From NCBI GenBank assembly GCA_011033025.1, contig WFMF01000176.1, positions 62,001 to 126,000 on the forward strand: a stretch of DNA of 64,000 nucleotides. The letters run 5' to 3'. Positions within the stretch are counted from its first letter, which is position 1; the number at the start of each line of letters is the position of its first letter. The notes beneath the pieces were generated by a model. That model saw only the letters and a list, made by a program, of their open reading frames with translations. It was not told the DNA's origin and searched no databases. Positions 3,001 through 40,900 of this stretch are shown one piece after another. Made by a program: the position numbers and the translations under genes. The stretch is from Beroe forskalii. Lineage: Eukaryota > Ctenophora > Nuda > Beroida > Beroidae.

Positions 3001-5704
3001 CCCTTAGCAAACCTGAGCCACCCATGAGCCTCCACCATCCCATGTTACTTACCCTTAGCAAACCTGAGCCACCCATGAGCCTCCACCATCCCATGTTACT
3101 CACCCTTATCAAACCTGAGCCACCCATGAGCCTCCACCACCCCATGTTACTCACCCTTAGCAAACCTGAGCCACCCATGAGCCTCCACCACCCCATGTTA
3201 CTCACCCTTAGCAAACCTGAGCCACCCATGAGCCTCCACCATCCCATGTTACTCACCCTTATCAAACCTGAGCCACCCATGAGCCTCCACCACCCCATGT
3301 TACTCACCCTTAGCAAACCTGAGCCACCCATGAGCCTCCACCATCCCATGTTACCCATGAGCCTCCACCACCCCATGTTACTCACCCTTAGCAAACCTGA
3401 GCCACCCATGAGCCTCCACCACCCCATGTTACTCACCCTTAGCAAACCTGAGCCACCCGCAGGCCTCCACCACCCCATGTTACTCACCCTTAGCAAACCT
3501 CCACCACCCCATGTTACTCACCCTTAGCAAACCTGAGCCACCCATGAGCCTCCACCATCCCATGTTACTCACCCTTAGCAAACCTGAGCCACCCATGAGC
3601 CTCCACCACCCCATGTTACTCACCCTTAGCAAACCTGAGCCACCCATGAGCCTCACCACCCCATGTTACCCACCCATGTTGAGCCTCCACCACCCCTTAT
3701 CAAACCTGAGCCACCCATGAGCCTCCACCACCCCATGTTACTCACCCTTAGCAAACCTGAGCCACCCATGAGCCTCCACCATCCCATGTTACTCACCCTT
3801 AGCAAACCTGAGCCACCCATGAGCCTCCACCATCCCATGTTACTCATAGCAAACCTGAGCCACCATGAGCCTCCACCAACATGTTACTCACCCTTAGCAA
3901 ACCTGAGCCACCCATGAGCCTCCACCACCCCATGTTACTCACCCTTATGAGCCACCCATGAGCCTCCACCACCCCATGTTACTCACCCGTAGCAAACCTG
4001 AGCCACCCATGAGCCTCCACCATCCCATGTTACTCACCCTTAGCAAACCTGAGCCACCCATGAGCCTCCACCACCCATGTTACTCACCCTTAGCAAACCT
4101 GAGCCACCATCCCATGTTAGCCACCCATGAGCCTCCACCATCCCCCATGTTACTCACCCTTAGCAAACCTGAGCCACCCATGAGCCTCCACCACCCCATG
4201 TTAGCTGAGCCACCCATGAGCCTCCACCATCCCATGTTACTCACCCTTATCAAACCTGAGCCACCCATGAGCCTCCACCATCCCATGTTACTCACCCTTA
4301 GCAAACCTGAGCCACCCATGAGCCTCCACCATCCCATGTTACTCACCCTTATCAAACCTGAGCCACCCATGAGCCTCCACCATCCCCATGTTACTCACCC
4401 TCACCCTTATCAAACCTGAGCCACCCATGAGCCTCCCACCATCCCATGTTACTCACCCTTAGCAAACCTGAGCCACCCATGAGCCTCCACCACCCCATGT
4501 TACTCACCCTTATCAAACCTGAGCCACCCATGAGCCTCCACCATCCCATGTTACTCACCCTTAGCAAACCTGAGCCACCCATGAGCCTCCACCATCCCAT
4601 GTTACTCACCCTTATCAAACCTGAGCCACCCATGAGCCTCCACCATCCCATGTTACTCACCCTTATCAAACCTGAGCCACCCATGAGCCTCCACCATCCC
4701 ATGTTACTCACCCTTATCAAACCTGAGCCACCCATGAGCCTCCACCATCCCATGTTACTCACCCTTATCAAACCTGAGCCACCCATGAGCCTCCACCATC
4801 CCATGTTTACTCACCCTTAGCAAACCTGAGCCACCCATGAGCCTCCACCATCCCATGTTACTCACCCTTATCCGTGAGCCACCCATGAGCCTCCACCATC
4901 CCATGTTACTCACCCCAAACCTGAGCCCCTCCACCACCCCATGTTACTCACCCTTAGCAAACCTGAGCCACCCATGAGCCTCCACCATCCCATGTTACTC
5001 ACCCTTAGCAAACCTGAGCCACCCATGAGCCTCCACCATCCCATGTTACTCACCCTTATCAAACCTGAGCCACCCATGAGCCTCCACCATCCCATGTTAC
5101 TCACCCTTAGCAAACCTGAGCCACCCATGAGCCTCCACCATCCCATGTTAGCCCCTTAGCCCTGAGCCACCCATGAGCCTCCACCATCCCATGTTACTCA
5201 CCCTTATCAAACCTGAGCCACCCATGAGCCTCCACCATCCCATGTTACTCACCCTTATCAAACCTGAGCCACCCATGAGCCTCCACCACCCCATGTTACT
5301 CACCCTTATCAAACCTGAGCCACCCATGAGCCTCCACCATCCCATGTTACTCACCCTTATCAAACCTGAGCCACCCATGAGCCTCCACCCCCATGTTACC
5401 ACCATCCTATGTTAGCCTCCACCATCCCATGTTACTCCCTTAAACCCTGAGCCACCCATGAGCCTCCACCATCCCATGTTACTCACCCTTATCAAACCTG
5501 GAGCCACCCATGAGCCTCCACCACCCCATGTTACTCACCCTTATCAAAACCTGAGCCCACCCACCATCCCATGTTACTCCCCCACCAAACCTCCCATGTT
5601 CCACCACCCATGTTGCTCAACCTGAGCCACCCATGAGCCTCCACCATCCCATGTTACTCACCCTTAGCGAACCTGAGCCACCCATGAGCCTCCACCATCC
5701 CATG
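1..5704. repeat. 51-bp minisatellite carrying a splice donor
   Basis: About 110 head-to-tail copies of a 51-bp unit (plus strand: cctgagccacccatgagcct, then ccaccatcccatgttactca, then cccttagcaaa). The array continues past the left edge. Variants alternate TTAGCAAA/TTATCAAA and CCATC/CCACC, and some units are truncated. Fifty-one is 17 codons, so both strands stay open over long stretches; those frames are not genes. On the minus strand every intact unit contains AAGGGTGAGTAACATGG, a near-ideal 5' splice site. The rest of the unit matches the last ~42 nt of the Ig exon ending at 5662, so the array looks like an expansion of that exon-intron junction. Confidence 0.95.
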
Positions 5705-7221
5705 GTCGTTCTCCCCAAAGCAGGTGTACCGGCCCTCATCTTCCAGCTGGAGGTTGATGAGATCCAGGATGACTATCGTGCTGCCCCCCGTGGGGGAGGT
5801 GCCGTACTTCGGGAATATCATCTGATGGAGTGAGAGGAGTGAAGAGGGGGAAGAGGGGGAAGGGGTGGGGGAGAGGGGGAGTGGGGGGAGAGAGGGAGGG
5901 GGGGAAGGGGGGGAGAGGGGGTGGGGTGGGGGAGAGAAGGGAGGTGGTGGGGAGGAGGTGGGAAGGGTGAGAGAGGGAGGGGGTGGGTGGAGAGGGGAGT
6001 GGGGTGGGGGAGGGGGGAGTGGTGGGAGAGGCGGAGTGGGGGTGGGGGAGTGAAGGGGGGTGGGGAGAGAGGGAGTAGGGTGAGGGGAGGAGTGAAGGAG
6101 GGGGGGGGGTGGTGGAGAGGGGGAGTGAGGGAAAGGGGGCGAGTAGAATGTAAGGTTCTGATAAGGAAGAGGAGGAGAGTTTAGAAAAGCCACACCCTAC
6201 AGCAGGAGGAAGGGGAGGGAAGAAGGCGGATATTACACAAAATACCATGAATATTATGCTTACCAAATGCGTGGAAATTCATTGACATTCTCCCTGCTTC
6301 CTCACCTTCATTGGCCTATCAACAGGGTTAAACTTGATGGCCACATGCGCCAAGGGGTTAGCTTTAATCTTGCACTTGAGCTGTTGGTTCATCCCAACTT
6401 CCACTGTGTGGTTTCCAGGGCCTGTAATGACGGTGGGAGGGCCTATGGAGATTGAGGACATGCCTCTCCGCCGTCTACTGAGGAGTCCTGGGGTCTCGAG
6501 GGGGGCGTCATCACAGCTACACAGGGCGAGCACTGGGGGGTAGGAGGGTTAGGTGGGGGAGGCGTCATCACTGCTACACAAGGCGAGCACTGGGGGTAGG
6601 AGGGTTAGGTGGGGGGAGGCGTCATCCACTGCTACACAAGGCGAGCACTGGGGGTAGGGAGGGTTAGGTGGGGAGGCGTCATCACTGCTACACAGGGCGA
6701 GGCACTGGGGGGTAGGGAGGGTTAGGTGGGAGGCGTCATCACTGCTACACAAGGCGAGCACTGGGGTTGGGAGGGTTAGGTGGGGAGGCGTCATCACTGC
6801 TACACAGGGCGAGCACTGGGGGGTAGGAGGGTTAGATGGGGAGGCGTCATCACTGCTACACAAGGCGAGCACTGGGGTTAGGAGGGTTAGGTGGGGGAGG
6901 CGTCATCACTGCTACACAGGGCGAGCACTGGGGGTAGGAGGGTTAGGTGGGGGAGGCGTCATCACTGCTACACAAGGAGAGCACTGGGTGGGAGAATAGC
7001 AAGGGTCAGGACTCAGGGAGTTCTGATGATTCAGGAATTTACTATCAGGACGGATTTTGTGGGAAAAGATGGATCATAATCTGTGAAAAATGAACATCAT
7101 CGCTTTTACAGTTGTACAAACGCGGGTGATTACAAAAAGCGCACCCTGTATCAATAACAAGTAACTACAAACACTCACCTGACAGCGCAAGGAGGAAGGG
7201 TAAACTGAAGGAGTCGGCCAT
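5662..7221 (-). CDS. secreted Ig-domain protein, first three coding exons
   Basis: Three exons join in frame. Exon 1 (7221-7179) has ATG and MADSFSLPFLLALS, donor CAG|GTGAGT, ending phase 1. Exon 2 (6532-6306), acceptor CCCCAG|TGCTCG, completes a signal peptide (VLALCSC), has a basic SRRRRG stretch that could be a furin-type site, then starts an I-set-like Ig domain with the B-strand Cys in QQLKCKIKANP, donor AAG|GTGAGG, phase 0. Exon 3 (5821-5662), acceptor CATCAG|ATGATA, carries the DEGRYTC motif, then ENDHGMVEAHGWLRF, and ends phase 1 at AAGG|GTGAGT. The usual core Trp is not seen. A 5'UTR acceptor (TTTGCAG) lies near 7234. Later exons must lie left of the window. The product enters the secretory pathway; whether it is an adhesion molecule, receptor or secreted factor cannot be said. 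Exon calls are strong, the family is open. Confidence 0.85.
5824..6145. repeat. ~320-bp polypurine/polypyrimidine tract
   Basis: The plus strand is almost pure G and A (gggggagaggg-type, irregular), so the minus strand is pyrimidine-rich. It lies immediately upstream of the exon 3 acceptor of the Ig gene (CATCAG at 5827-5822) and so acts as an extraordinarily long polypyrimidine tract. Mirror-like GA runs could form triplex or G-quadruplex DNA. Pro/Ser/Leu-rich open frames here are composition artefacts. Confidence 0.9.
6504..6990. repeat. ~56-bp minisatellite carrying a splice acceptor
   Basis: About nine copies of a ~56-bp unit (plus: ggcgtcatcactgctacaca, aggcgagcactgggggtagg, agggttaggtggggga). 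On the minus strand each copy reads as a pyrimidine tract, then CCCCCAG|TGCTCGCC, then about 30 nt matching the start of Ig exon 2. The copy next to the exon (6533-6534 = AG) is the presumed working acceptor. The G runs on the plus strand have G-quadruplex spacing. Confidence 0.93.
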
Positions 7222-7234
7222 GTCGCATCTGGCC

Positions 7235-8428
7235 TGCAAACAGAAAGAGAGATGAGGTTGGGGTCTAACTGGTATGTGTCTTCATAGGTTGGAAAATGAA
7301 AGTAGCATGTCGAATAGTGAAGGTCGAAAGGGTAGGCACAAGGGCTCTAAAAACGCCCTTTATAGCTTGTAAATTTGTAAATTACACATATCATGGTTTC
7401 AATGTTCAAGAGAGTCTCTGTCAGAGATGAGTTCAAAAATGATAGTTCTTGTGGGGAAAACTGTCCAAACTTGGACAACAAGAAAAAGTTTGCTTCTTTC
7501 TACCTGGTCGTTTGGCCTACTTTTCGACCTGTTGCTTTTAACCTATGATGACACATATGTGAATATAGGGATAGGAGTGTGCCTTCCAAATACACATTAA
7601 CATGGAATGTTGTAGAATGGAAACAAAAGAGAAAGTTGAAAATAAAACGAATTTTCTGCGTTTATTGCTTTATATGGCGAAGTTTATTAGCAAATGAAAT
7701 ATCAAAATGTCAGAAGTGGTAGAACTACTCGTTTGAATTAATTTCACCAACAAACCGCTGTCATCGCATCACTTACTTACATTACTGATATAGACGTTAA
7801 TTGATGTTTATTAATGGAATTGAAATAATAAGTATTATGAATTGGAGTCAGTTTAAAGAATGGGAGGTTGGCTGGTTTGCCAGTTTGGGATGTTGACAAT
7901 AAAACCCCTGTATCAGCCGTGTTTTATGTTTTGAACTATTTTCATACAAGGTGACAGAGGAAAAAGAAGAAATCAGACGAATTAAGTTCAATTTAGGCTT
8001 TCGTTGGAGGACAGACCAAGATCCCACACAACTTGGAACAGCGACAATTATTATGAAAAGAATTGGTCCAATACATTGGTCGAAGACAAAAAATTCATGA
8101 CATAATTATCAAAAGTGACTAATCAAAAGCAAAGTTTTGGAAGGAAGATATGACCAAAGATGCTGTCAACATTAGCGCACGGGTGAATTGACAGAGTTAC
8201 GCAATCACTAAGTCGAGTAAGCCATGTAATACCATCGTGACAGAATTACTAAATTTAAAGTGGTTTACGCTCAGAAGAACCCATAAAACCCTACGAGTGG
8301 CAGTTTAGTCATCATTTCTTATCAGATAACGAATAGTTTGCTCAGATGACTTACTGACACAGAGCACACACACACAGCAAACGCAGCAAACCTATTACCT
8401 AATTGCTAATGGGAGTGGGAAACTGCAA
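7235..8428. other. no gene recognised
   Basis: About 1.2 kb of AT-rich sequence upstream of the first Ig coding exon. It probably holds the 5'UTR intron and promoter of that gene, but I see no clear TATA box, open frame, tandem repeat or transposon end. Confidence 0.5.
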
Positions 8429-11400
8429 CAAGCTCAGGTGCATGGGTATCAAGCTCCCAGGGGGTCAGGTGCATGGGTATCAAGCTCCCAGGGGGTCAGG
8501 TGCATGGGTATCAAGCTCCCAGGGGGTCAGGTGCATGGGTATCAAGCTCAGGTGCATGGGTAACAAGCTCCCCAGGAGTCAGGTGCATGGGTATCAAGCC
8601 CCAGGGAGTCAGGTGCATGGGTATCAAGCTCCCAGGGGTCAGGGTGCATGGGTATCAAGCTCCCAGGGGTCAGGTGCATGGGTAACAAGCTCCCAGGGAG
8701 TCAGGTGCATGGGTATCAAGCCCCAGGGAGTCAGGTGCATGGGTATCAAGCTCCCAGGGGTCAGGTGCATGGGTATCAAGCTCCCAGGGGTCAGGTGCAT
8801 GGGTAACAAGCTCCCCAGGGGTCAGGTGCATGGGTATCAAGCTCCCAGGGGGTCAGGTGCATGGGTATCAAGCTCAGGTGCATGGGTAACAAGCTCCCAG
8901 GGAGTCAGGTGCATGGGTATCAAGCTCCCAGGGAGTCAGGTGCATGGGTATCAAGCTCAGGTGCATGGGTAACAAGCTCCCAGGGAGTCAGGTGCATGGG
9001 TATCAAGCTCCCAGGGAGTCAGGTGCATGGGTATCAAGCTCCCAGGGAGTCAGGTGCATGGGTATCAAGTCTCAGGGGGGCTGCGGGGTATCAGCTCAGG
9101 TGCATGGGTAACAAGCTCCCAGGGAGTCAGGTGCATGGGTATCAAGCTCCCAGGGAGTCAGGTGCATGGGTATCAAGCTCCCAGGGAGTCAGGTGCATGG
9201 GTATCAAGCTCCCAGGGAGTCAGGTGCATGGGTATCAAGCTCAGGTGCATGGGTATCAAGCTCCCAGGGGGTCAGGTGCATGGGTATCAAGCTCAGGTGC
9301 ATGGGTATCAAGCTCCCAGGGAGTCAGGTGCATGGGTATCAAGCTCCCAGGGAGTCAGGTGCATGGGTATCAAGCTCAGGTGCATGGGTATCAAGCTCCC
9401 AGGGGGTCAGGTGCATGGGTATCAAGCTCCCAGGGAGTCAGGTGCATGGGTATCAAGCTCCCAGGGGGTCAGGTGCATGGGTATCAAGCTCCCAGGGGGT
9501 CAGGTGCATGGGTATCAAGCTCCCAGGGAGTCAGGTGCATGGGTATCAAGCTCCCAGGGGTCAGGGTGCATGGGGGATCAAAGCTCCCATGGGTATCAAG
9601 CTCCCAGGGGGTCAGGTGCATGGGTATCAAGCTCCCAGGGAGTCAGGTGCATGGGTATCAAGCTCCCAGGGGGTCAGGTGCATGGGTATCAAGCTCCCAG
9701 GGGGTCAGGTGCATGGGTATCAAGCTCCCAGGGGGTCAGGTGCATGGGTATCAAGCTCCCAGGGGGTCAGGTATGGGCATCAAGCCCCAGGGGTGGGGCA
9801 TGGGGTCAGGTGCATGGGATCAAGCTCCCAGGGGGTCAGGTGCATGGGTATCAAGCTCCCAGGGGTCAGGTGCATGGGTATCAAGCTCCCAGGGGGTCAG
9901 GTGCATGGGTATCAAGCTCCCAGGGGGTCAGGTGCATGGGTATCAAGCTCCCAGGGGGTCAGGTGCATGGGTATCAAGCTCCCAGGGGGTCAGGTGCATG
10001 GGTATCAAGCTCCCAGGGGGTCAGGTGCATGGGTATCAAGCTCCCAGGGAGTCAGGTGCATGGGTATCAAGCTCAGGTGCATGGGTAACAAGCTCCCAGG
10101 GAGTCAGGTGCATGGGTATCAAGCTCCCAGGGAGTCAGGTGCATGGGTATCAAGCTCCCAGGGGTCGTGCATGGGTATCAAGCTCAGGTGCATGGGTATC
10201 AAGCCCCAGGGGGTGCATGGTCAGGTGCATGGGTATCAAGCTCCCAGGGAGTCAGGTGCATGGGTATCAAGCTCCCAGGGGGTCAGGTGCATGGGTATCA
10301 AGCTCCCAGGGGGTCAGGTGCATGGGTAACAAGCTCCCAGGGAGTCAGGTGCATGGGTAACAAGCTCCCAGGGAGTCAGGTGCATGGGTATCAAGCTCCC
10401 AGGGAGTCAGGTGCATGGGTATCAAGCTCCCAGGGGGTCAGGTGCATGGGTATCAAGCTCCCAGGGAGTCAGGTGCATGGGTAACAAGCTCCAGGGAGTC
10501 AGGTGCATGGGTATCAAGCCCCCAGGGAGTCAGGTGCATGGGTATCAAGCTCCCAGGGGTCAGGTGCATGGGTATCAAGCTCCCAGGGGTCAGGTGCATG
10601 GGTATCAAGCTCAGGTGCATGGGCAACAAGCCCCAGGGAGTCAGGTGGCGGGTATCAAGCCCCAGGAGTCAGGTGTATGGGCATCAAGCCCCAGGGAGTC
10701 AGGTGCATGGGTATCAAGCTCCCAGGAGTCAGGTGCATGGGTATCAAGCCCCCAGGGAGTCAGGTGGTGGGTATCAAGCTCCCAGGGAGTCAGGTGCATG
10801 GGTAAGCTCCCAGGGAGTCAGCGCATGGGTCAAGCTCAGGTGCATGGGTATCGCTCCCAGGGGTCAGGTGCATGGGTCAAGCTCAGGTGCATGGGTATCA
10901 AGCTCCCAGGGAGTCAGGTGCATGGGTATCAAGCTCAGGTGCATGGGTATCAAGCTCCCAGGGGGTCAGGTGCATGGGTATCAAGCTCCCAGGGAGTCAG
11001 GTGCATGGGTATCAAGCTCCCAGGGGGTCAGGTGCATGGGCATCAAGCTCCCAGGGGTCAGGTGCATGGGTATCAAGCTCAGGTGCATGGGGTAAGCCCC
11101 AGGAGTCATGTGCATGGGTATCAAGCTCCCAGGGTCAGGTGCATGGGGATCAAGCTCCCAGGGGTGGTGCATGGGTATCAAGCTCCCAGGGGGTCAGGTG
11201 CATGGGTATCAAGCTCCCAGGGGTCAGGGTGCATGGGTATCAAGGGGGTCAGGTGGGTATCGCATGGCATCAAGCTCCCAGGAGTCAGGTGTGCATGGGT
11301 ATCAAGCTCCCAGGGGTCAGGTGCATGGGTATCAAGCTCCCAGGGGGTCAGGTGCATGGGTATCGCTCAGGTGCATGGGTATCAAGCTCCCAGGGGTCAG

Positions 11401-12236
11401 TGCATGGGTATCAAGCCCCAGGAGTCAGGTGCATGGGTATCAAGCTCCCAGGGGTCAGGTGCATGGGTATCAAGCTCCCAGGGGTCAGGTGCATGGGTAT
11501 CAAGCTCAGGTGCATGGGTATCAAGCTCCCAGGAGTCAGGTGCATGGGTATCAAGCTCCCAGGGGCCGTGCATGGGTATCAAGCTCAGGTGCATGGGTAT
11601 CAAGCTCCCAGGGGGTCAGGTGCATGGGTATCAAGCTCCCAGGGGGTCAGGTGCATGGGTATCAAGCTCCCAGGGGGTCAGGTGCATGGGTATCAAGCTC
11701 AGGTGCATGGGTATCAAGCTCCCAGGGAGTCAGGTGCATGGGTATCAAGCTCCCAGGGGGTCAGGTGCATGGGTATCAAGCTCCCAGGGGGTCAGGTGCA
11801 TGGGTATCAAACAGGGTGCATGGGTATCAAGCTCCCAGGGGTCAGGTGCATGGGTATCAAGCTCCCAGGGGTCAGGTGCATGGGTATCAAGCTCCCAGGG
11901 GTCAGGTGCATGGGTAACAAGCTCCCAGGGGTCAGGTGCATGGGTATCAAGCCCCAGGGAGTCAGGTGCATGGGGATCAAGCTCCCAGGGAGTCAGGTGC
12001 ATGGGTATCAAGCTCCCAGGGGTCAGGTGCATGGGTATCAAGCCCCAGGGAGTCAGGTGCATGGGTATCGCTCAGGTGCATGGGTATCAAGCTCCCAGGG
12101 TCAGGTGCATGGGTATCAAGCTCAGGTGCATGGGTAACAAGCTCCCCAGGGGAGTCAGGTGCATGGGTATCAAGCTCCCAGGGAGTCAGGTGCATGGGTA
12201 TCAAGCTCAGGTGCATGGGTAACAAGCTCCCAGGGG
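8429..12236. repeat. 31-bp minisatellite
   Basis: Roughly 120 copies of a 31-bp unit (plus: gtcaggtgcatgggtatcaa then gctcccaggga/gggg), with shorter 18-bp variants lacking the cccagggggtcag part. Because 31 is not a multiple of three, the long frames repeat every 93 bp and cycle through three peptide phases; they are artefacts. Each unit contains both an acceptor-like CTCCCAG and a donor-like CAG|GTGCAT on the plus strand. No flanking exon was recognised, so a junction origin is not shown here. Confidence 0.95.
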
Positions 12237-18235: not shown

Positions 18236-18365
18236 ATCCTGATAGGGGGGGAGGTAAGGCAAACTTTGGCAAACTATGGCAAACTTTGGCAAACACTTTT
18301 TTTGGCAAACTCCAAAAAAAGTGGAAGCATTTGCCAAAGTTTGCCAAAGTTTGCCAAAAATAAAA
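18236..18365. repeat. fold-back repeat of GGCAAACTTT units
   Basis: Tandem ggcaaacttt/ggcaaactat units are followed by their inverse (gtttgccaaagtttgcc). The centre is a perfect 12-bp stem, CACTTTTTTTGG and CCAAAAAAAGTG, around a six-base loop. The same structure recurs at 21105-21228. Confidence 0.85.
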
Positions 18366-18734: not shown

Positions 18735-20515
18735 CTAATTGCCAAGTGAAAGCTGAGTGGAGCCTAGTGGAGGCTGAGTGGAGCCTAGTGGAGGCTGTGT
18801 GGAGCCTAGTGGAGGCTGTGAGGAGCCTAGTGGAGGCTGACTGAAGCCTAGCGGAGGCTGTGGTGAGCCTAGTCGAGGCTTTGTCGAGCCTAGTGGAGGC
18901 CTGAGTGGTACCTAGTGGAGGCTAAGTGGTGCCTAGTGGAGGCTGAGTGGAGCCTAGTGGAAGCTGAAGGAGCCTAGTAGAGGCTCTGAAGAGCCTAGTA
19001 GGCTCCACTAGGCTCCACTCAGCCCTACCAGGCCTCACTCAGCCACCATTAGGCTCCACTCACTCTCCACTATGCTCAACTCAGCCTTCACTAATTGTAA
19101 TAGAGGCTGTGTGGAGCCTAGTGGAAGCTAAGTGGAGCCACACAGCCCTACTAGGCCTCAATCAGCCTCCACTCACTCTCCACTATGCTCCACTCAGCCT
19201 TCACTAGTAGTGGGGCTGTGTGGAGGCTGAGTGGAGCCTAGTGGAGGCTCAGGGGAGCCTAGTTGAGGCCTTGTAGAGCCTAGTGGTCCACTAGGCTCCA
19301 CTCAGCCTCCACTAGGCTCCCCTCAGCCTACACTAATAGTGCAGACTGAGTGGAGACTAGTGGAGGCTGTGTGGAGGTACTACAAGGCCTCTACTAGGCT
19401 CCCCGCAACCTCCATTCAGCCTCCACACAGCATCCACTACTAGTGAAGGCTGAGTGGAGCATAGTGGAGAGTGAGTGGAGGCTGAGACCTAGTAGGGCTG
19501 TGTGGCTCCACTCAGCCTCCACTAGGCTCCACTCTGCCTCCATTAGGCTTCACTCAATCTCCACTATGATCCAATCAGCCTTCACTAATTGTGGAGGCTG
19601 TGTGGAGTCTAGTGGAGAATGAGTCGTATCTAGTGGAAGCTGGGTGGAGCCTAGTTGAGGCCAGTGGAGGCTGAGTGGAGCCTAGTGGCGGCTAAGTAGA
19701 GCCAAGTGGAAGCTGAATGGAGGTTGACTGGAGCCTGCTGAAGGCTGTGTGAGCCTAGTGGAGGCTGTGTAGAGCCTAGTGGAAGCAGTGGGGAGCAAAG
19801 TGGAGGCTTTTTATAGCCTAGTGGTTCACTAGGCTCCACTCAGCCTCAACTAGGCTCCACACAGCCTTCATTGTTTCATTAGGATCCACTCACTCTCCAC
19901 GAGGCTCCACTCAGCGTTCACTAGTAGTGGAGGCTGAGTGAATGAGTGGACCCTAGTAGAGGCTGAGTGGAGCCTAGTGGAGGCTCTGTGGAGCCTTGTG
20001 GAGGCTGAATAGTACCTAGTGGAGGCTGAGTGGAGCCTAGTGGAAGCTGAGTGGAGTCTAGTGGAGGCTGTGTAGAGCCTAGTGAAGGCTGAGTGGAGTC
20101 TGGTGGAGGCTGTGTTGAGCCTAATGGAGGATGTCTGGAGCCTAGTAGAGGCTGTGTGGAGCCTAGTGGAAGCTGAGTAGAGCCTAGTATAGTAGAGGCT
20201 GAGTAGAGCCTAGTGGAGGCTGAGTGGTGGCTGAGTAGAGCCTAGTGGAGGCTGAGTGGAGCCTAGTGAAGGCTGAGTGGAGCCTGGTGGAGGCTGTGTT
20301 GAGCCTAGTGGAGGCTGTGCGGAGCATAGTAGAGGCTGTGTGGAGCCTATAGTGGAGGCTGAGTAGAGCCTAGTAGAGGCTGAGTAGAGCCTAGTGGAGG
20401 CTGAGTAGAGCCTAGTTGAGGCTGAGTGGAGCCTAGTGGAGGCTGTCTGGAGCCTAGTGGAGGCTGAGTGGAGTCATGTGGAGGCTGAGTGAGCCTAGTG
20501 GAGGCTGAGTGATAG
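18735..20515. repeat. ~21-bp array with alternating strand blocks
   Basis: Dense degenerate repeats of gagcctagtggaggctgagtg (about 20-21 bp). Between about 19005 and 19600, and again near 19825-19915, blocks appear as the reverse complement (ggctccactcagcctccacta), so the array has several internal inversions. Degenerate copies continue near 20625-20750. No gene seen. Confidence 0.9.
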
Positions 20516-26645: not shown

Positions 26646-26716
26646 ACGCACACAAGAATATGTAATACGACGCACATAATGAGGTTATTGAGGTTGAGAC
26701 ACGAAACCACTTGAAG

Positions 26717-26807
26717 TTGTCAGACGTTGTGTCGTTGTGTGACCCCTCGTCTTCGACGGGCGCGCGCGAAGCACGCGCGTACGCCGAAGGCGGACAACGT
26801 CTGACAA
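26717..26807. mobile_element. compound GC-hairpin element A
   Basis: Outer perfect 14-bp inverted repeats TTGTCAGACGTTGT (26717-26730) and ACAACGTCTGACAA (26794-26807). Inside are further hairpins: CGTC-TTC-GACG, a CGCGCG ... CGCGCG stem around cgaagca, and CGCC-GAA-GGCG. There is no coding capacity. It shares its outer arms with the element at 27527-27588. Confidence 0.75.
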
Positions 26808-27999: not shown

Positions 28000-28996
28000 T
28001 CAGAACGCGTCATTGTTACACGCTAGAGTTGCTCGTTCCAGAACTTGTAACCACCTGAGTAACCGATATGTGGTAATCACGCGGTCCACACTACGTTAAA
28101 CTAGCAGGTTTTTACCAACGGTGGTCTTATTAGGCAAAAACCTGGCAGGGGTGGGGTAGAAAGACAGGGGTGAAGTCCTCTGACTTCTTAATAACAGTAG
28201 AAGTAGAAATATCAAATCCATACACACTGTACTATACAGTGTAAAATTTACAGAGTAAAGCAGTATACCAGTGTACAATGTACAGTGTACAGTGTATACC
28301 AGTTTACAATGTATACAGTGTATACCAGTGTACACTTTACAGTGTATACCAGTGTACAATGTACAGTGTATACCAGTGTACAATGTACACAGTGTATACC
28401 AGTGTACTCTGTACACTGTACAATGTATATCAGTGTACACTGTGCAATGTACATGTTGTATTGTGTATACCCACCTTCTAAGGGAGTAAGCTGTCTGACA
28501 AGCTATCACCACTGAGAAAGTACTGCTGATGATTTTAAACGCGTGGTTAGCTGCGACATGGTCCTCATACTTGGTACCAGTCACCTGGAATTGTAACATG
28601 GTTACCATGGTACCATGGTAAGATGGTAACCATGGTCACATGGTCTCTTTAGTACCAGTCACCTGGAATTGTAACATGGTTACCATGGTAACATGCTCCT
28701 CTTAGTACCCGTCACCTGTAATTGTAACATGGTTACCATGGTAACATGTTAACTATGGTTACCATGGTAAATGGTATACTTAGTACCAGTCACCTGGAAT
28801 TGTAACAAGGTTAACATATAACCATAGCAATAAACGCAAATAACCCCCAAACCTCTAGATGTAGCATATCCAAGGTTCCCAAAGGTTTTACGTCATCATC
28901 TGCCTCGTAGAAGAAGAGCTTGGAGAAGATGAGTTCCAGCCAACGTCTCCTCCATTGAGACCTGTTCTGAGACCTCACATATACGTACCCTGACAA
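28000..28996 (-). CDS. second PH domain exons and C-terminus
   Basis: 28996-28853 (acceptor AACAG) encodes LSGYVYVRSQNRSQWRRRWL then LFFYEADDDVKPLG. 28584-28475 (acceptor ATTCCAG) gives VTGTKYEDHVAANHAFKII and SVVIACQTAYSLR. The last coding exon 28054-28000 (acceptor TTACTCAG) supplies the PH helix RWLQVLERATLACNND and ends AF-TGA. Phases match (0, 2). The protein ends right after this PH domain, as FARP and FGD proteins nearly do. The final exon has only 18 codons and was identified from the PH-helix pattern and phase. Confidence 0.85.
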
Positions 28997-31900
28997 CTGT
29001 TGGGGAGGGGGTGAGGGGTTAGGGGAGGGTGAGGAATAAGGAGAGGGGAGGGGTGAGGTATCAGAAAGGGTGGAGGTTGCCCACTCCTCACCAATTTAAG
29101 AAGAGGGGTGAGGGGAGGGTAAGAAGTGGGAATGATCGCTGGTGGGAAGAGGCCGCGAATCAGGGGAAAGGGGTCCCAGGGAAAAGGGGAATAAAACAGG
29201 AGGGAATGATATATAGGAAAGAGGCGCATGTAAACTTCCCGTGTTACATATAAGAAAGTGTGGAAGTGACTACTCGCCTGTTCCATGGAGAGAAGATCGT
29301 CTCCTCCGTAGCTGATTAGAGGAGGCTGCACAGTGTACTGAGTGACCTGCATGTCTCTGTGTCTCACATCCCCTCGGGAGTAGCAACTCTCACACACTCG
29401 CTGCATCTCAGCCTGCCCAGGCAGGGGTAGCTTCCACGAGCTACACCGAGTACACAGCACCTGTAACAAGGTACAGAGTTACCATGGTTACCATGGAGTT
29501 ACCATGGTTACCATGGTTACCATGGTAACCATGTAGTAGCAACTCTCACACACACGCTGCATCTCAGCCTGCCCAGGCAGGGGAAGCTTCCACGAGCTAC
29601 ACCGAGTACACAGCACCTGTAACAAGGTACAGAGTTACCATGGTAACCCTGGAGTTGCCATGGTTACCATGTAGTTACCATGGTAACTAGATACACCGAG
29701 TACAAGAAACCTGTAGGTAGACTGTAGAGTTACCATGGAGTTATCATGGAGTAGCCATGGTAACCAAGTACAGTACCTACTACCTGTGAGTGTACTGTGT
29801 GGGCGCTGTACCCCGAAGTAACGGGTTAGATTGGATGCTATGACAACCACCACAGTTTCCATGACAACGTCTATGCAGACATGTAGACAGCATACCTTGT
29901 TACAGAGTTTGCACGTTCTGTGTCTCTTGTCTCTTCCCAGAGTAATGCCACACACCATGCACAGTTCCTGTACAGCAGGCTCAATTTCTGTCGTCAGGGT
30001 CTGAGGAGGGTTACCATGGTTACAGTAGGGATTTAGGAAATTCAAGTAACACTGGATTCCATAGTAACATGGTTTTGCCAAGGTAACATACAGTGGAGAT
30101 CAAAAGTTGGTACAGAGTTGTTTAATTTAGAGTGTTTAATTTCAAAGTGCAGAGTGCAGACTGCCTATAAAAGTCAAACGTCTCCCTTTATTGGACAGTG
30201 TCATAACCTGCTCAGTAATCATACAACTCTTAATTAAGTGCGAACTGCTGTAGTTCTAAAGTTCTAACATTCTAATGCAACCGCCAATAGAACCAATAGA
30301 CATGGCGATTTCATTCAGGCTCTAGTCTGAAATTTGTTAAACCAGTCCCTTAACTCCCTGATTCAGCTACAATTTAGAGAGATCTTAAATTCTCATTTCC
30401 TTTCATTGCATGGTGTTTAACTGATGATCTCCCGTGGACATGTTTAAGTATTCCAGTACCAGTGTGCGACATATTCCAGTGATCAGGAGATATCCCTTAA
30501 TCTGTCATCTCTGTGGTGATTGGTTGTCATACTCAGAACTCTGTTGCTATTGGTTGTCACACTCAGAACTCTGTTGCTATTGGTTGTCACACTCAGAACT
30601 CTGTAGCTATTGGTTGTCATACTCAGAACTCTGTTGCTATTGGTTGTCATACTCAGAACTCCGTTGCTATTGGTTGTCACACTCAGAACTCCGTTGCTAT
30701 TGGTTGTCATACTCAGAACTCAGTTGCTATTGGTTGTCAGCCCCACTCAACCCTCACCCCCTTGATACATATCACTAATCACTGTCACATATCCCAATCA
30801 GCACTCGGCAGGGGGAGTTAAACAGCAGTCTCCAACAGGACCATCAGTTCGTGTGTATGTTTGTATGTCTGTGTACTAGTTATGTTTGTATGTTTGTTTG
30901 TGTGTATAGGTGTATGTGAGTATTTCTCCTCAGCCAACTATCGCGTCACTTGACAGCCTCGCTGCGCGCTGGACACTGCACAAGTTATCACGTGACCCAC
31001 TGTTAATCTGTCAACGCACTTCAGACTTCTAGGTTTTAAAGCGCTTCTTGCCTCTCTCCTGTTTCCTTAACTCCTTGTATCTCTCAGATGAGAGCTTGCT
31101 TTCTCCTTGTTACACGGGAAGGTTATGTTTTAATTATCCAATGATTTCTTGGCAGGTTTTTGCAAATCCTACAAGTGTTTGTCCGTTTCCTATTTCTGTT
31201 TTTAATTTCCCTGATTCCCTCCCTATGTTGTCTTTTAAATCGCAGAGCGATGATTTAATCGTCATTGATTTGTCGTCAGCTGGGAACGGTCCAGTAAAAC
31301 ATTCTGAAATACCCCTGAAGTGATGCAGCTGTAATCGCCATCTGCTCAAGCAGTGCACACACCTTTACTGTGTGACATCATTAAAACACCACTTTGAGTC
31401 CTGATAATGACGTCACTCTCAACTGTTTATACTCACATGACCTCATGAGCTGTGTAGAAGTGAAGTTTTTAGCGGCTAAATTAGTGTTTTGTATAGTAAA
31501 CTCTGAAGTGAGATCAATGATTAAACCTCTCTATTTGTTAGTTTAGTAAATACCTAGTGCGGCGTTATTTTGTGTGATTTATGTAACCTTAACGTGTAAA
31601 CATTCATTTCAAATGTGGTTGCAAATCTTTTATATCAAATATTTTTCACAAAAACGCACTGCACTTTCATAATACAGTTTCTGCTTTTCTGTTCAAGGCA
31701 GGGCAAAGGGTTTCATTAGCAGGCAAATTGGTACCGAGGTGTCCCGAATATTTCGTGTACTGTCGCTAAAGTACATTAGCGCTATCATCCACCCTAAAAG
31801 CACATTTGCGCGCAGCAAAAAAAGTACACCGCGCGTCTTAATATGCCGCGCAGAAAATGACAGGAATCTCCCAGGTATGGCGTTGTCAGACTACCTCCCC

Positions 31901-34900
31901 CCTCCCCTGCTCATCCTAGGCGGACTTCTCACCCAGATGACAGTGGAGCATATTGTGGTATTCTACCGGCTCCTAACAGTCTGTGAGTACCACCTGATCT
32001 GGTTACAGTTCCTCTATCTCTCCCTCGTCATGACTGCAGTGTGCGCTATCAAGTCACCCCCGCGATACCGCGCAGTCAGGACTCTTCTCACTCTCCTAGG
32101 CTCCCTGGTCCTGAACGTAGCTGCTGGACTGGACACCTTCAAAACAGGGTTATATTGCTATGATGTGGAAGATATAGACATCTACTTGGAGTACGTGTCT
32201 ATAGGACTCCTGGTTGTGTCCGGAGTAGTTGTGTTGGTGGTGTTCCTCTGCAAACCTTCCTCCTCCTCTCTCCTCCTCCCTCACTTCCCAGATAGTGACG
32301 TGATACTGACAGGGGTGTGTTTCCACTACGGGTTCGAGGGCATGTCTCAGCACCTCATCACATGGCCCAGTAATACCTCCTGTTATGGGAACTGGATAGA
32401 ACTTATAGCCCTATCTCTGCTGCTGGTTGTTATACAGGTTGTCAAGGCACCCTCTCAATACACCGTGTCACGGGGGCTACTTACCTTCTTCTGCTCCTTT
32501 ATAATCCATTTCGCTACCGGGGAGAATGCTTACTACTACCTACTCTTTGGACGCGCGTGTCTGCAGCTGGAAGGATCTGTCATTCCATTGGTGCAACTCA
32601 TAATGACTGCAGTGTCAGGGCATGCTGCTCTGGTTACCATGGTAATGTTCCTAGTTACCATGGAAACCACAACTTCCAGGGATTATAGCGATAACAGTGA
32701 GATAGACTAGATATCCTGGTAACTTTAATACCATGGTAACCATGCTCTGGTTACCATGGTAATGTTCCTAGTTACCATGGAAACCACAACTTCCAGGGAT
32801 TATAGCGATAACAGTGAGATAGACTAGACACCCTGGTAACTTTAATACCATGGTAACCATGCTCTGGTTACCATGGTAATGTTCTTAGTTACCATGGTAA
32901 CCACAACTTCCAGGGATTATAGCGATAACAGTGAGATAGACTAGATACCCTGGTAACTTTAATACCATGGTAACCATGCTCTGGTTACCATGGAAACTGC
33001 ACACAAACTATCGGTAATTGGGATGACAGTACTACCAGTGAGATAGACTAGATAGACTCGGAATCCTGGTGACTGACCCATAAGCTCATTAGTAACCGTA
33101 GAAACCAGGATTGAGAACTGGAAAAATGAACCTTATTTGTTGAAATGAACGTTTTACTCTGGTATTAACTTTATACTCTGCCCTTGTTTTCTCAGTTTGA
33201 TACTTTTAACGTACTAACGTAATGAAACTAATGTTATGTTCGTATTTTGATGATCAGGACTTAGTGACTTACTATATAATTACTAAATTACTATTAAATT
33301 TTAAAAACTATTTTTATAAATAGCTAATTTTAACATTTCTCGTTTTCTCTGCGCTAATATTGTGTTGACGCGTTTTGACAATTGACAACTACCTCTGCTA
33401 AGTTGCCATGTCTAAAAACAGTAACTTTACACGCTAGCACTCGCAAACACACACTCACACACTCACGGCTCACACGTCACAAACTATTAAACAAACTCAT
33501 ACAGGCAGGTAACATTGCTGACCAACATACCTACAAACCAACAAACACCTAACACACATGTACAAACAAACGCTCACAGGAAGGTGTTCAGGTTTCCTCC
33601 TCTTTCTGTAGATGTTTGCAGTAAACTTGAGGTCGTGGACCCACTTCTCAGAGTCATGCGCGTCGTCCACGTGCAGTTCTAACGTGGAGTTGTCAGGGAG
33701 CGTCACTGTGAACGCGAACACGTTCTCTTCTTCAGACTCCGCTACCTAGCAACAATAGATTAATACCTGGCAACAGTAGGGAGTAAGGCACCTGCATCGT
33801 TCCGCGTCGATCAAATGAACTGGTAAAATGAAAAACGCACACAATCGTTCGCGCTTGCTCTTTTGCGCGGACTTTTTTGTAAAAGTGTGTTGTGCGCGTT
33901 TTTCATTTGATCAGTCCGTTTGATCGACGCGGAACGATGAAACCACCTAATTATGTTACCTAATAACGGTACTACAGTAGTAACTCAAATACGGAATACG
34001 GAATACCTAGCAACAATTATAATCCGTTACATGACAACAGTGGGTTAGAAGCAACACTGCTACCTAGCAACAGTGGGTTAGAAGCAACACTGCTACCTAC
34101 CAACAGTGAGTTAGAAGCAACACTGCTACCTAGCAACAGTGGGTTAGAAGCAACACTGCTACCTAGCAACAGTGGGTTAGAAGCAACACTGCTACCTAGG
34201 AACAGTGGGTTAGAAGCAACACTGCTACCTAGCAACAGTGGGTTAGAAGCAACACTGCTACCTAGGAACAGTGGGTTAGAAGCAACACTGCTACCTAGCA
34301 ACAGTTGGTTAGAAGCAACACTGCTACCTAGGAACAGTGGGTTAAAAGCAACACTGGGTTAGACTAGGGTTAAATGCTACTCTGCGAAAGCGAGCAGGAT
34401 GTGTCCATTGAGGGAAGCCACTGAGCTAGGATGGAGGAACTCTCTGTAGAACTGGGAATTTATACAGTTACCTGTAACACTAGGGCATGTTTTACTGTTC
34501 TCACGGACATGTCCGAGAGACAAGTCGCGAGAACTGTCCGTGAGACATCCCTCTCACCTCGATGTCCTGGACGTGGAACATGTTGAGCAGGAGCAGCTGT
34601 TTGTCCTTCAGTTTGCAGTACAGCAGACAGTCAGACAGCAGGATCAGGGTCCGTACCATGGACCTGGTGGCAGTGATGTGACGCACCATGCCACGCCTTA
34701 GGAACACACGACCTGGGAACATGGGGGTGTCATGGTAAAATGGGGGTGTCATGGTAACATGGGGTGTTATGGTAACATGGGGGTGTCATGGTAACATGGG
34801 GGTGTCATAGTAACATGGGGGTGTCATGGTAACATGGGGGTGTCATGGTGACATGGGGGTGTCATGGTAACATGGGGTGTCATGGTAATATGGGGTGTCA

Positions 34901-37900
34901 TGGTAACATGGGGGTGTCATAGTAACATGGGGTGTCATGGTAACATGGGGGTGTCATGGTAACATGGGGGTGTCATGGTAACATGGGGTGTCATGGTAAC
35001 ATGGGGTGTCATGGTAACATGGGGGTGTCATGTTAACATGGGGGTGTCATGGTAACATGGGGGTGTCATGGTAACATGGGGATGTCATGGTAACATGGGG
35101 TGTCATGGTAATATGGGGTGTCATGGTAACATGGGGGGGTGTCATGTAAATAACATAATATGGGGGTGTCATGTTAACATGGGGTGTCATGGTAACATGG
35201 GGTACAAGGAACATGGGGTGTCATGGTAACATGTGGGTGTCATGGTAACATGGGGGTGTCATGGTAACATGGGGTGTCATGGTAACATGGGGGTGTCATG
35301 GTAACATGGGGGTGTTATGGTAACAGGATGTTGTTGCCCTACCTAACACAGGTATCTCCTTGACGCCCATTTACCACCCTACCTAGGACTGGTATCTCCT
35401 TGACCCCCATTTACCACCCTACCTAGGACTGGTATCTCCTTGACCCCCATTTACCACCCTACCTAACACTGGTATCTCCTTGACCCCCATTTACCACCCT
35501 ACCTAACACTGGTATCTCCTTGACCCCCATTTACCACCTTACCTAGGACTGGTATCTCCTTGACCCCCATTTACCACCCTACCTAGGACTGGTATCTCCT
35601 TGACCCCCATTTACCACCCTACCTAGGACTGGTATCTCCTTGACCCCCATTTACCACCCTACCTAGGACTGGTATCTCCTTGACCCCCATTTACCACCCT
35701 ACCTAGGACTGGTATCTCCTTGACCCCCATTTACCACCCTAACTAGGACTGGTATCTCCTTGACCCCCATTTACCACCCTACCTAGGACTGGTATCTCCT
35801 TGACCCCCATTTACCACCCTACCTAGGACTGGTATCTCCTTGACCCCATTTACCACCCTACCTAGGACTGGTATCCTTGACCCCCATTTACCGCCCTACC
35901 TAACACTGGTATCTCCTTGACCCCCATTTACCACCCTACCTAGGACTGGTATCTCCTTGACCCCCATTTACCACCCTACCTAGGACTGGTATCTCCTTGA
36001 CCCCCCATTTACCACCCTACCTAGGACTGGTATCTCCTTGACCCCATTTACCGCCCTACCTAACACTGGTATCTCCTTGACCCCCATTTACCACCCTACC
36101 TAGGACTGGTATCTCCTTGACCCCCATTTACCGCCCTACCTAACACTGGTATCTCCTTGACCCCCATTTACCACCCTACCTAAGACTGGTATCTCCTTGA
36201 CCCCCATTTACCACCCTACCTAGGACTGGTATCTCCTTGACCCCCATTTACCGCCCTACCTAACACTGGTATCTCCTTGACCCCCATTTACCACCCTACC
36301 TAAGACTGGTATCTCCTTGACCCCCATTTACCACCCTACCTAAGACTGGTATCTCCTTGACCCCCATTTACCACCCTACCTAGGACTGGTATCTCCTTGA
36401 CCCCCATTTACCACCCTACCTAAGACTGGTATCTCCTTGACCCCCATTTACCACCCTACCTAAGACTGGTATCTCCTTGACCCCATTTACCACCCTACCT
36501 AAGGACTGGTATCTCCTTGACCCCCATTTACCACCCTACCTAGGACTGGTATCTCCTTGACCCCCATTTACCACCCTACCTAGGACTGGTATCTCCTTGA
36601 CCCCCATTTACCACCCTACCTAGGACTGGTATCTCCTTGACCCCCATTTACCACCCTACCTAAGACTGGTATCTCCTTGACCCCCATTTACCACCCTACC
36701 TAGGACTGGTATCTGACCCCCATTTACCACCCCTAACTTGGTATCTCCTTGACCCCATTTACCACCCTACCTAAGACTGGTATCTCCTTGACCCCATTTA
36801 CCACCCTACCTAGGACTGGTATCTCCTTGACCCCCATTTACCACCCTACCTAAGACTGGTATCTCCTTGACCCCCATTTACCACCCTACCTAAGACTGGT
36901 ATCTCCTTGACCCCCATTTACCACCCTACCTAGGACTGGTATCTCCTTGACCCCCATTTACCACCCTACCTAGGACTGGTATCTCCTTGACCCCCATTTA
37001 CCACCCTACCTAGGACTGGTATCTCCTTGACCCCCATTTACCACCCTACCTAGGACTGGTATCTCCTTGACCCCCATTTACCACCCTAACTAGGACTGGT
37101 ATCTCCTTGACCCCCGTTTACCACCCTACCTAGGACTGGTATCTCCTTGACCCCCATTATCCACCCTACCTAGGACTGGTATCTCCTTGACCCCCATTTA
37201 CCACCCTACCTAAGACTGGTATCTCCTTGACCCCCATTTACCACCCTACCTAGGACTGGTATCTCCTTGACCCCACCCTACCTAGGACTGGTATCTCCTT
37301 GACCCCCATTTACCACCCTACCTAAGACTGGTATCTCCTTGACCCCCATTTACCACCCTACCTAGGACTGGTATCTCCTTGACCCCCATTTACCACCCTA
37401 CCTAAGACTGGTATCTCCTTGACCCCCATTTACCACTCTACCTAGGACTGGTATCTCCTTGACCCCCATTTACCACCCTACCTAGGACTGGTATCTCCTT
37501 GACCCCCATTATCTCCGTTTCCAGACTCTGCAGCAGTGTACAGTTCATTATCTTAGTGAGATCAGGAGTGAGGGGAGGTGTGTTAGCGTTAATCTCGTGG
37601 AACACTTCGTTAAAGTCAGGAGCTGAAGGGTCGCTGTCTCCCACACAGTCTATCAGCCTGTCTACGAGTCCTTGGTACTGCTTGATTCGGAGAACGGGGT
37701 ACAGGAGCAGGTTAGGGATACTCACCACGCTGCTTGAACGACCTGAGGGGGGGGTAAGTTCTTACTCTTTCTAATTTGAGGGGGTTAAAGGTTCATGGAA
37801 AGGGGGCTGATGACATGGGTCAATGGGTGAAAGAAGGGAGAAAAAGGAGTTGAAAGTTCCAATTTTGTTAGTAAAGTTAATGAATTTTGCGTTATGAAAC

Positions 37901-40900
37901 TGCTGCGCCAGTCGCCACTTCGATTCCGGAATTTGCTAATGATAAAATTTTGCCTAAAAGTCTGCCTAACTTTTATTCGTAAATCACTGGAAAATCTTTC
38001 CCTACCCTCGAAAAGGACGACGTGTTTAGCAAAGACTGGTTCGCCCTGCAGACTGGCGTTGAAGCGCTCCATGGTCTGGTTGTAGTCGTTAATGTAGTCA
38101 GTGTACAACTGAGGGGGGACATATTTTTAGTAGTTAGAGGAAGAAAAATGTTGAATTCATTTCCTTCTTCTTTCTTTCTCATTTTTCGTTTCTCATTCCC
38201 TTCAAGGTACTTAGGTATTGTATAGTTGCATTTGTATGGCATCTTAACAACCCGGTTAACAACAATAAAATTACGATCGCAATACAATAGTATTTTACGG
38301 CCGCTAATTGTTATTCTGCCATCCTCTTATTCCAAAACTTCGACCAACATTCGCACTTTCAACCCGACGAAGTGACAATTATTATACGTAACAAAATCAT
38401 ACCGAACGGCGAACACGGATCAAACATGTGAAAAACAATGAACAGTGGACACGTAACAGACCCAAGATCTTGCAAATTCAAAGTACCGTGAAAAGACAGA
38501 GGTTCCTGGTCAGGATGTCTGAGATGTTGAAGTTCCGGGAATCGTTGCTCCAAGCAACCAGTCTGTCTTCCAGCTGCCTGAGGAACTTCTGATGCATCTC
38601 GTATAAGTTGCTAAGCAACAATAGCTGGGAGTTGGTGAAGGGACCTGTAGGGTAATAACAGGGTGGTTAGGTTGCTAAGCAACAGTACCTGGGGGTTAGG
38701 TTGCTAAGCAACAATAGCTGTGGTCCTGTAGGGTAATAACAGGGTGGTCAGGTTGCTAAGCAACAGTACCAGGGGGTTAGGTTGCTAAGCAACAATAGCT
38801 GGGAGTTGGTGAAGGGTCCTGTGGAGTAATAACAGGGTGGTTAGGTTGCTAAGCAACAGTACCAGGGGGTTAGGTTGCTGAGCAACAATAGCTGGGAGTT
38901 GGTGAATGGTCCTGTAGGGTAATAACAGGGTGGTTAGGTTGCTAAGCAACGAAGTTGGGTTGCAACAGTAACTGGGAGTTTGTGGAAGATTCTTCACAGG
39001 ATTTTTGGAGGATTTAAGCATCCATTATTTGCTGACATGAAAAGGAGAAAATAGAGGTTTATCTCAACCAATCTCATCCTACTTTAACCTCCAATCTCAC
39101 AGTGACACAGTACCGTTGGGGATGTTTATCAAATAACTACAGAATTACCCCGTCCCCCCTCACTCCACAATACCGTTAGGGATGTTGATCTCTCTGAGGA
39201 AAGTGTTGAGGATTCCCAGCACCTTAACGTAGGTCTTCTCTGTATACACGAACTCTTGAGAGAGGGCGTGCAGCCTGCTGTAGCCAGACTTCCTGGAGAT
39301 ACGTTGTCAGGGTGATTTGTTGTCATGGTGATGTGTTGTCAGGGTGATGCGCTATCATTTGTTGTCAGGGTGCTCTGGGCTTTGTGTTGTAAGGGAGTTG
39401 TGTTTTCATGTGTTGTTAGGGTGATGTCAAGGTGATGTCAGGGTCATGTGTTGTCAGGACGACTCATTGTAACTCACGAGTATCTAGAGAGGTAGTTGCT
39501 ATAGCAACACTCACGAGTATCTAGAGAGGTAGTTGCTATAGCAACACTCACGAGTATCTAGAGAGGTAGTTGCTATAGCAACACTCACGAGTATCTAGAG
39601 AGGTTGTTGCTATAGCAACACTCACGAGTATCTAGAGAGGTAGTTGCTATAGCAACACTCACGAGTATCTAGAGAGGTTGTTGCTATAGCAACACTCACG
39701 AGTATCTAGAGAGGTAGTTGCTATAGCAACACTCACGAGTATCTAGAGAGGTAGTTGCTATAGCAACACTCACGAGTATCTAGAGAGGTAGTTGCTATAG
39801 CAACACTCAGAGTATCTAGAGATGTAGTTACATATATTATGGTTGCTATAGCAACTAAGCAACACTCACGAGTATCTAGAGAGGTAGTTGCTATAGCAAC
39901 ACTCACGAGTATCTGGAGAGGTAGTTGCTATAGCAACACTCAGAGTATCTAGAGATGTAGTTACATATATTATGGTTGCTATAGCAACTAAGCAACACTC
40001 ACGAGTATCTAGAGAGGTAGTTGCTATAGCAACACTCACGAGAGTCTAGAGAGGTAGTTGCTATAGCAACACTCACGAGTATCTAGAGAGGTAGTTAGCG
40101 AACCCCGCATCCGGCATACTCTTCCCCACATCCAGGATCAGATCCAGAGGAATTGTTGTTGGGGTGTCATACTCAGTCTCTAGGGGCTCACTGGACAGGG
40201 AGCCACGGCTTGAGGTACGAGATGGCATGCCTGAAATATTTGGGACTATTCGAGCTCAAAGCATGAGAGATTGCAGCAGAAATAAACATAAATTACATTG
40301 TCCGACTAATCCCTGTAGAACCAAGGTTTAACCTAGCCGTTGAGCAGTAACTCCTTCAAAACACTAGATAGTCTCCTGGCCCTAACTTCGAGTAAACCAC
40401 TAACTTGCGACAGAAGAGACCTTGTGGAGAGCAGCTCCGTTTGAGTTGGAGAAGTTGGGAGAACCCCCGTTCCTGCGTGGAATGCTGAGTGACGTCAGTA
40501 GGGACATTTCAATTAGCATTATATTCAGTGGAATGCTGGGTGACGTCAGTAGGGACGGGGAATGACAGGTAATGACATCAGTAGGGACATTTAGCATTAT
40601 ATTCAGTGACCAGGGGTGTTCGCAGGATTGGTAATTCGGGCAAAGTTGCTGAACATTGATTCTCCATGAGGAGGACAAATCGTGTTAAGAAGTTATAACT
40701 AAGGCAAATCATAGGACTTTCAACGGTACATATTACGAGGGCTTAAACCCATGACCCCCTTGGTATACTCACAGTTGTGTTTCATTGGTTGATATCTGCA
40801 CACTGTCCTCTGTACAGTAGATCTGTGCTTCCCCACCCCTCTCCTCAACCCTACCCCTGCAGCTACTGCTATCTGAAATACAGGGGCGTAGCCAGGGGGA

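Follow-up and report, generated by a model that had tools for sequence, protein, structure and literature searches.

Exon-edge minisatellites in genes of the ctenophore Beroe forskalii are probably tolerated repeats rather than products of a junction-targeted process

Can tandem repeats built from the end of an exon and its own splice site be the work of ordinary minisatellite formation, or do they betray amplification aimed at exon-intron junctions themselves? The question is raised by a stretch of 64,000 nucleotides (nt) from the ctenophore Beroe forskalii (GenBank assembly GCA_011033025.1, 216 Mb in 1134 contigs; contig WFMF01000176.1, here C221:62001-126000), hereafter the window, in which two unrelated genes, one encoding an FGD/FARP-like RhoGEF and the other an immunoglobulin (Ig) domain protein, carry such arrays at several exon edges. 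The most probable answer is that these arrays are 'mirages', a term established for amphioxus: ordinary minisatellites that are tolerated at exon edges, with no process targeting them there. Coordinates below are window positions unless prefixed C or L, the L numbers denoting sampled loci.

To count junction copies, sequence within 6 kb was compared with a junction window of 30 nt (20 from the exon, 10 from the intron) and 23/30 identities or more were required; the genuine copy is included in each count. By this measure 7 of the 26 exon edges of the two genes possess extra copies, and the remaining 19 have only their own; all seven places at which a preliminary description of the window had reported arrays of an exon edge with its splice site are thereby upheld. 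The exonic stretch shared by the repeat unit runs from 15 to 82 nt, and the seven arrays are therefore not coincidental matches. All lie on the minus strand, three at donors and four at acceptors. The donor arrays are a 37-base pair (bp) unit with 20-21 exonic nt at 40077 (39472-40097; 14 junction copies), a 40-bp unit with 30 exonic nt at 37482 (35337-37511; 53 junction copies) and, in the Ig gene, a 51-bp unit of ~43 exon and 8 intron nt at 5662 (194-5706; ~100 copies, 86 of them junction copies). The acceptor arrays comprise a 93-bp unit with 39 exonic nt at 38644 (38606-38951; 3 junction copies), a 156-bp unit with 82 exonic nt at 29460 (29379-29688; 2 copies, with a third, degenerate one seen by eye at ~29713), 53/78-bp units with 15 exonic nt at 28584 (28570-28822; 3 junction copies, a fourth by eye) and a 56-bp unit with 33 exonic nt at Ig 6532 (6500-6994; 8.7 copies, 8 junction copies). 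The earlier expectation of tens of equivalent splice sites per junction thus describes the three donor arrays (14, 53 and 86) but not the acceptor arrays (2, 3, 3 and 8). That such arrays are a route of intron growth is borne out by intron 5 of the FGD-like gene (34713-37481), which is made up of two nearly abutting arrays, the 40-bp donor array and one with a 19-bp unit (34714-35325, minus strand); the latter stops 1 nt before exon 6, and its unit resembles the intron end and has no exonic part.

These assignments depend on the exon ends. The minus strand was read and the exons were joined into gene models. Eleven exons of the FGD-like gene (28475-40230, minus strand) were modelled, at 40230-40077, 39292-39174, 38644-38487, 38108-38006, 37742-37482, 34712-34558, 33745-33578, 30000-29896, 29460-29278, 28996-28853 and 28584-28475, and more are likely downstream. 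The Ig gene, on the same strand, has exons at 7179-7221 (a signal-peptide-like start, judged by eye), 6306-6532 and 5662-5821, the last ~43-45 nt of the third being the exonic part of the 51-bp unit. Joining improves the matches to Pfam throughout: the 553-amino acid FGD-like protein matches RhoGEF (1.5e-20), PH (2.4e-14, in two stretches) and FYVE (1.3e-7), against 0.003 for DH, 0.00025 and 0.035 for PH and 0.0017 for FYVE when exons are scored singly, and the three Ig exons reach 9.1e-8 for Ig_3, against 0.0083 at best as separate pieces. An alignment to FARP2 (PDB 4gzu, E 4.1e-30) crosses the exon 5/6 junction of the FGD-like gene with no insertion there, in support of a coding role for the first donor and the last acceptor. 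The donor of exon 9 (end 29278) appears to be of the GC type (ACAG|gcgagt). The suspicion that wrong exon ends or an assembly error created the arrays arises from exon ends modelled on sequence in an unannotated genome. It can be largely excluded, since the joined proteins match Pfam and PDB families across the junctions, the reading phases of the modelled exons agree, array copies differ among themselves by substitutions and indels, and six further contigs also hold duplicated junctions (L043, L046, L047, L049, L055 and L017/L036).

Repeated splice sites pose the problem of which copy is used. Past the donors at 40077, 37482 and Ig 5662 the first in-frame stop begins after 1, 41 and 5 nt, respectively. 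The second donor of the 40-bp array, 40 nt on, escapes the stop but shifts the frame, and the shifted frame ends at a stop 40 codons beyond exon 5; use of the third brings a stop after 14 codons. Among upstream acceptor copies, all 12 of the 12 tested yield a stop before the true exon. Since every tested internal copy leads to a stop or a frameshift, any protein that is made requires the outermost donor or the exon-proximal acceptor. Choice would in that case depend on position, the first donor and the last acceptor defining the shortest exon, which is what exon definition would predict. Scored with generic matrices, 13/13, 49/52 and 83/85 of the other donor copies (145/150 together) equal or exceed the genuine donor, and the GT or GC dinucleotide is kept in 14/14, 51/53 and 86/86 copies. 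Retention of the dinucleotide favours the idea that selection maintains many equal splice sites that buffer splicing or regulate expression. This explanation is highly improbable, as young, homogenised arrays retain their motifs without selection, the internal copies lead to stops or a frameshift, and copy number varies between near-identical duplicates.

Are such arrays peculiar to the two genes of the window? Introns were called with a purpose-written, small GeneWise-like program in 23 kinesin places, taken from 134 matches and in some cases belonging to one gene (L058-L061 were picked for long introns), and in five kinase loci; for the kinases, eight places were taken from the 125 matches listed, five of them multi-exon and three used as seeds. 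Kinesin arrays with clear exonic parts stand at three donors (L046, with a 43-bp unit in 2 copies, L049 and L036) and three acceptors (L047, 58 bp; L017, 56 bp, 27.8 copies; L055, 39 bp, 9.8 copies), and the recurrence in unrelated genes claimed in the preliminary description for the two window genes therefore extends to kinesins. The L046 donor is read as a nascent case. Two-copy donor cases were also found in L043 and in L054/L055, and kinase L070 has a 25-bp unit in 2.1 copies that was found by Tandem Repeats Finder (TRF) and missed by the junction window at 22/30. In three further arrays only 4-5 nt are exonic (the L036 acceptor, L017 donor and L056 acceptor). A before-and-after pair is provided by two nearly identical kinesin copies, L055 (C647) with 9.8 acceptor units and L054 (C671) with one; the two are haplotigs or recent paralogues, and both appear partly degenerate. 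TRF by itself undercounts junction arrays. Its 46 arrays at kinesin loci comprise 39 intronic, 3 junction and 4 nominally exonic ones; the last lie at model ends and on reading prove to be three clear junction arrays and one with ~4 exonic nt, and the donor array of L049 was cut short.

Whether junctions are hit more often than chance allows was assessed by a geometric null, which treats tandem duplications as tolerated when they lie within an intron or straddle one edge. Expectations follow from unit length and from intron lengths with arrays collapsed, the residual lengths being approximate; arrays had a unit of at least 20 and a score of at least 100, and an array counted as straddling from 8 exonic nt upwards. 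Of 18 arrays in the kinesin set, whose 115 introns have a residual median of 225 nt, 3 straddle a junction against 3.52 expected, or 6 of 21 against 4.06 (P 0.20) when the three junction arrays at model ends are added. Several choices were made by hand: the L059 array in a spurious intron was dropped, L049 was counted as a junction case and the L055 array, clear on reading, was kept despite a doubtful model; in the window, one row was kept for Ig intron 3, the unit was set for four arrays, the 156-bp array was added, the 19-bp array fell below the unit cut and the 33-bp array described below was treated as non-junction. With introns of median 225 nt once arrays are collapsed, about one fifth of tolerated duplications of such size straddle an edge by geometry, and a junction-targeted process is therefore not needed for the sampled genes.

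A second test asked how often sequence recurs within its own intron (at 22/30 or better) in the 28 kinesin and kinase loci, with 117 introns and 234 edges. Junction sequence recurs at 6/234 edges and sequence 20-50 nt inside the intron at 11/234 (Fisher P 0.32), and exon interiors 30-60 nt from the edge recur in 0/218 cases. Exon interiors thus rarely carry repeats, and junctions are no richer in them than the neighbouring intron. The test omitted introns under 70 nt and 18 doubtful introns, one with the L055 array; its count is without the model-end junction arrays L047, L017 and L036, and it includes both of the near-identical L054 and L055. The recurrences at the L049 and L059 acceptors (22/30 and 24/30) may be due to chance or to model errors. 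The genes of the window, treated alike, give 8/26 for junctions, 2/25 for exon interiors and 12/26 for introns: the window is richer in both junction and intron repeats, and was chosen because of that.

The opposing view holds that exon-intron junctions are amplified by a process directed at them, of which co-transcriptional R-loops or nicks forming at splice sites, or pre-mRNA-templated repair, would be examples, and several observations favour it over the absence of targeting. Of the 11 arrays in the two genes of the window, 7 straddle a junction where 2.36 are expected (P 0.0019), and the excess persists without the long (3.6-kb) intron 7 (7/9 against 3.10, P 0.0065) and at a looser score cut (7/13 against 2.45, P 0.0029); it can be explained away only by ascertainment, the window having been picked for showing arrays. 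The two highest-copy arrays of these genes (~103 and 55 copies) are both junction arrays. By values entered by hand, the exonic part of the unit also tends to be large in 13 strong cases (mean share 0.61, Kolmogorov-Smirnov P 0.09), a tendency that disappears when four weak cases are added (mean 0.51, P 0.89), and positives in the second test are so few (6 and 11) that a modest junction excess may exist. Despite this, a junction-directed process seems unlikely. Genes picked regardless of repeats show no clear excess, junctions recur no more than intron windows, donor and acceptor edges are affected alike and, as set out below, the edge of a stop codon shows the same anatomy. The preliminary description had stated that chance could not explain the arrays and that the genome seems to amplify exon-intron junctions; neither statement, taken as a claim about process, is supported by the kinesin counts or by the parity of junction and intron, and the comparison of arrays with boundaries that it proposed, made here on modelled genes, reveals an excess in the window genes and none that is clear in the kinesins.

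The stop-codon case is situated in intron 7 of the FGD-like gene, where an open frame of 345 codons is nested on the plus strand (31673-32710). It has no match in Pfam and is a putative coding sequence. A 117-bp array on the same strand (32625-32995) is composed of the last 86 nt of this frame, stop codon included, and the 3' flank, and thus has the anatomy of the exon-edge arrays without a splice site. A 94% duplicate of the frame 75 kb away on the same contig (C221:17000-22000, L062), with one in-frame TGA, has 2 units of the array, against 3 in the window. Copy number accordingly differs in both duplicate pairs, L054/L055 and window/L062, these being duplicates and not alleles or cells. FGD exon 7 (33578-33745) is copied in the L062 duplicate as well, the only FGD exon found within C221:17000-29000.

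Taken together, the parity of edge types, the array over a stop codon and the L054/L055 pair speak for general repeat birth coupled with selective tolerance. Short tandem duplications would arise anywhere, presumably by ordinary slippage or end-joining, and the first unit of each array would be a duplication that chanced to straddle an exon edge. Duplications within an exon would break the protein and be lost, and those inside an intron or across an edge would survive; the filter itself is visible in the counts, and its likely cause is that after a duplication across an edge the outermost copy still provides an intact exon and splice site. Survivors would then expand by normal minisatellite turnover, of which the copy-number differences between duplicates give evidence, and so lengthen an existing intron, the outermost donor or exon-proximal acceptor presumably being the one used if protein is made.

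Do the arrays create introns or merely enlarge them? It has been proposed that a duplicated junction can turn exon sequence into a new intron, and the copies do bear usable splice signals, as the donor scores given above indicate. An intron so gained should be absent from relatives, however, and in six of the seven kinesin cases the array intron occupies a position common to a related gene that does not have that array: L017 shares its position with L047, two L036 arrays with L047 and L059, L055 with L054, L049 with L043 and L047 with L036. At the relevant edges L043 has its own old two-copy duplication, and L036 has no array at the one common to L047. The comparison covers the kinesin cases, among which L046 has no comparison gene. 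Since six of the seven introns predate their arrays, growth of old introns and not intron birth is indicated in the kinesin cases where this could be examined; birth is very unlikely as a general account, and the suggestion that the arrays may be a route by which introns arise is not sustained there.

How do these arrays compare with known systems? In the pertinent sections of the amphioxus papers (PMC3087553, PMC3902484), mirages of the same anatomy are reported from Adh3, the globin genes BflGb6 and BflGb9, PGBD5 and TnC, with normal splicing by reverse transcription polymerase chain reaction and somatic instability at Adh3, and intron gain from duplicated junctions is proposed (PMC3087553, Fig. 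7). In common with them, Beroe units hold an exon end and the adjacent splice site, in two window genes and in kinesins, and arrays occur at both 5' and 3' exon boundaries. They differ in their ctenophore host, in reaching 86 junction copies, in affecting several edges of one gene and in extending to a stop codon; moreover, splicing and instability were demonstrated by experiment in amphioxus, whereas the evidence from Beroe is confined to genome sequence. Intron gain by tandem genomic duplication, as outlined in the relevant parts of PMC4974935 and PMC3443670, likewise involves a duplication that includes splice signals, but there the intron is new and the Beroe kinesin arrays sit in older ones. 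Introner-like elements, in the portion of PMC4457414 concerned with them, are also repeated sequences with splice signals. The two Beroe stretches searched in the genome behave differently from such elements: 183 bp of the 40-bp array gave 14 matches, all in C221:97337-99482 (very common words skipped), and a stretch of exons 3-5 that includes parts of the 93-bp and 40-bp units gave 7, all at its own locus, so that no second copy of FGD-like exons 3-5 was found in the genome. Introners are dispersed as copies in many genes. A ctenophore counterpart of mirages was not found in the literature searched, although one may still exist in print. The sections of the Hormiphora genome paper that treat repeats put 13% of the genome in TRF repeats and report raised indel rates in introns, with no exon-edge arrays in those passages; neither 'intron' nor 'tandem' appears in the main text of the genome paper on Beroe ovata (PMC11184263). 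What is new here is the extension of mirages, known in the searched literature only from amphioxus, to a ctenophore and to several unrelated genes.

Other features of the window genes are weaker or incidental. Two further edges are weak cases. The donor at 39174 has one diverged second copy (22/30) in its intron (39100-39200, minus strand). The acceptor region of exon 33745 is resembled, at 81% or less and with 10 exonic nt, by the unit of a 33-bp array (34035-34356, minus strand), and the segmental duplicate of this exon holds a second copy of the acceptor at 96% (L062:4215-4239). At the donor at 28475, the flank contains a single 20-nt match to the exon part only (at least 16/20) and no junction copy. 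Between the 33-bp array and exon 33745 is an inverted repeat resembling a miniature inverted-repeat transposable element (33795-33939), with 50-nt arms that are 90% complementary. Within the 37-bp unit a perfect palindrome, GTTGCTATAGCAAC, is present in 15 copies (39495-40070), and hairpins of this kind may help arrays to begin or expand. A second palindrome, GTTACCATGGTAAC, which resembles the RFX X-box, has 1036 occurrences genome-wide, where a reversed control pattern has 22; with up to 1 mismatch there are 18 in the window (28601-32997), mostly within array units. At 18741-20511, 21-bp units alternate between strands (GTGGAGGCTGAGTGGAGCCTA and its complement).

Among the sampled places, C1134 (L041, L045; 13,339 bp) is the ctenophore mitochondrial genome, with frames open under table 4. 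It holds cox1; Pfam identifies cox3 and a pair of genes of antiporter type, interpreted as nad4 and nad5, and cob, nad1 and cox2 were recognised by eye; ARAGORN, run with the bacterial code on the first 10 kb, found no tRNA. Two long frames after nad5, of 368 and 313 codons, have no Pfam match. The section of PMC6991124 on the published Beroe forskalii mitochondrion also places two unidentified frames after ND5, of 1,065 and 669 bp, lengths that differ from those seen here. The contig points to a ctenophore host, probably a beroid; sponge and amphioxus had also been considered. A search for let-7 gave only sub-threshold matches, on both strands of one place.

These loci bear on two long-standing questions, how introns grow and how one splice site is chosen among equals. 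The simple quantitative null used here predicts how frequent such arrays should be wherever a genome combines short introns with abundant minisatellites. For splice-site choice they would constitute a natural test, with dozens of near-equal donors of which only the outermost is predicted to yield protein. A bolder possibility, which we regard as doubtful though worth stating, is that junctions are duplicated somewhat beyond geometry in this lineage, that mirages have inflated the introns of an appreciable share of ctenophore genes and that the spliceosome takes the first of up to 86 donors by position. If that were true, these loci would be natural competition assays for splice-site choice, and introns would still be growing by this route in a lineage at the base of animals.

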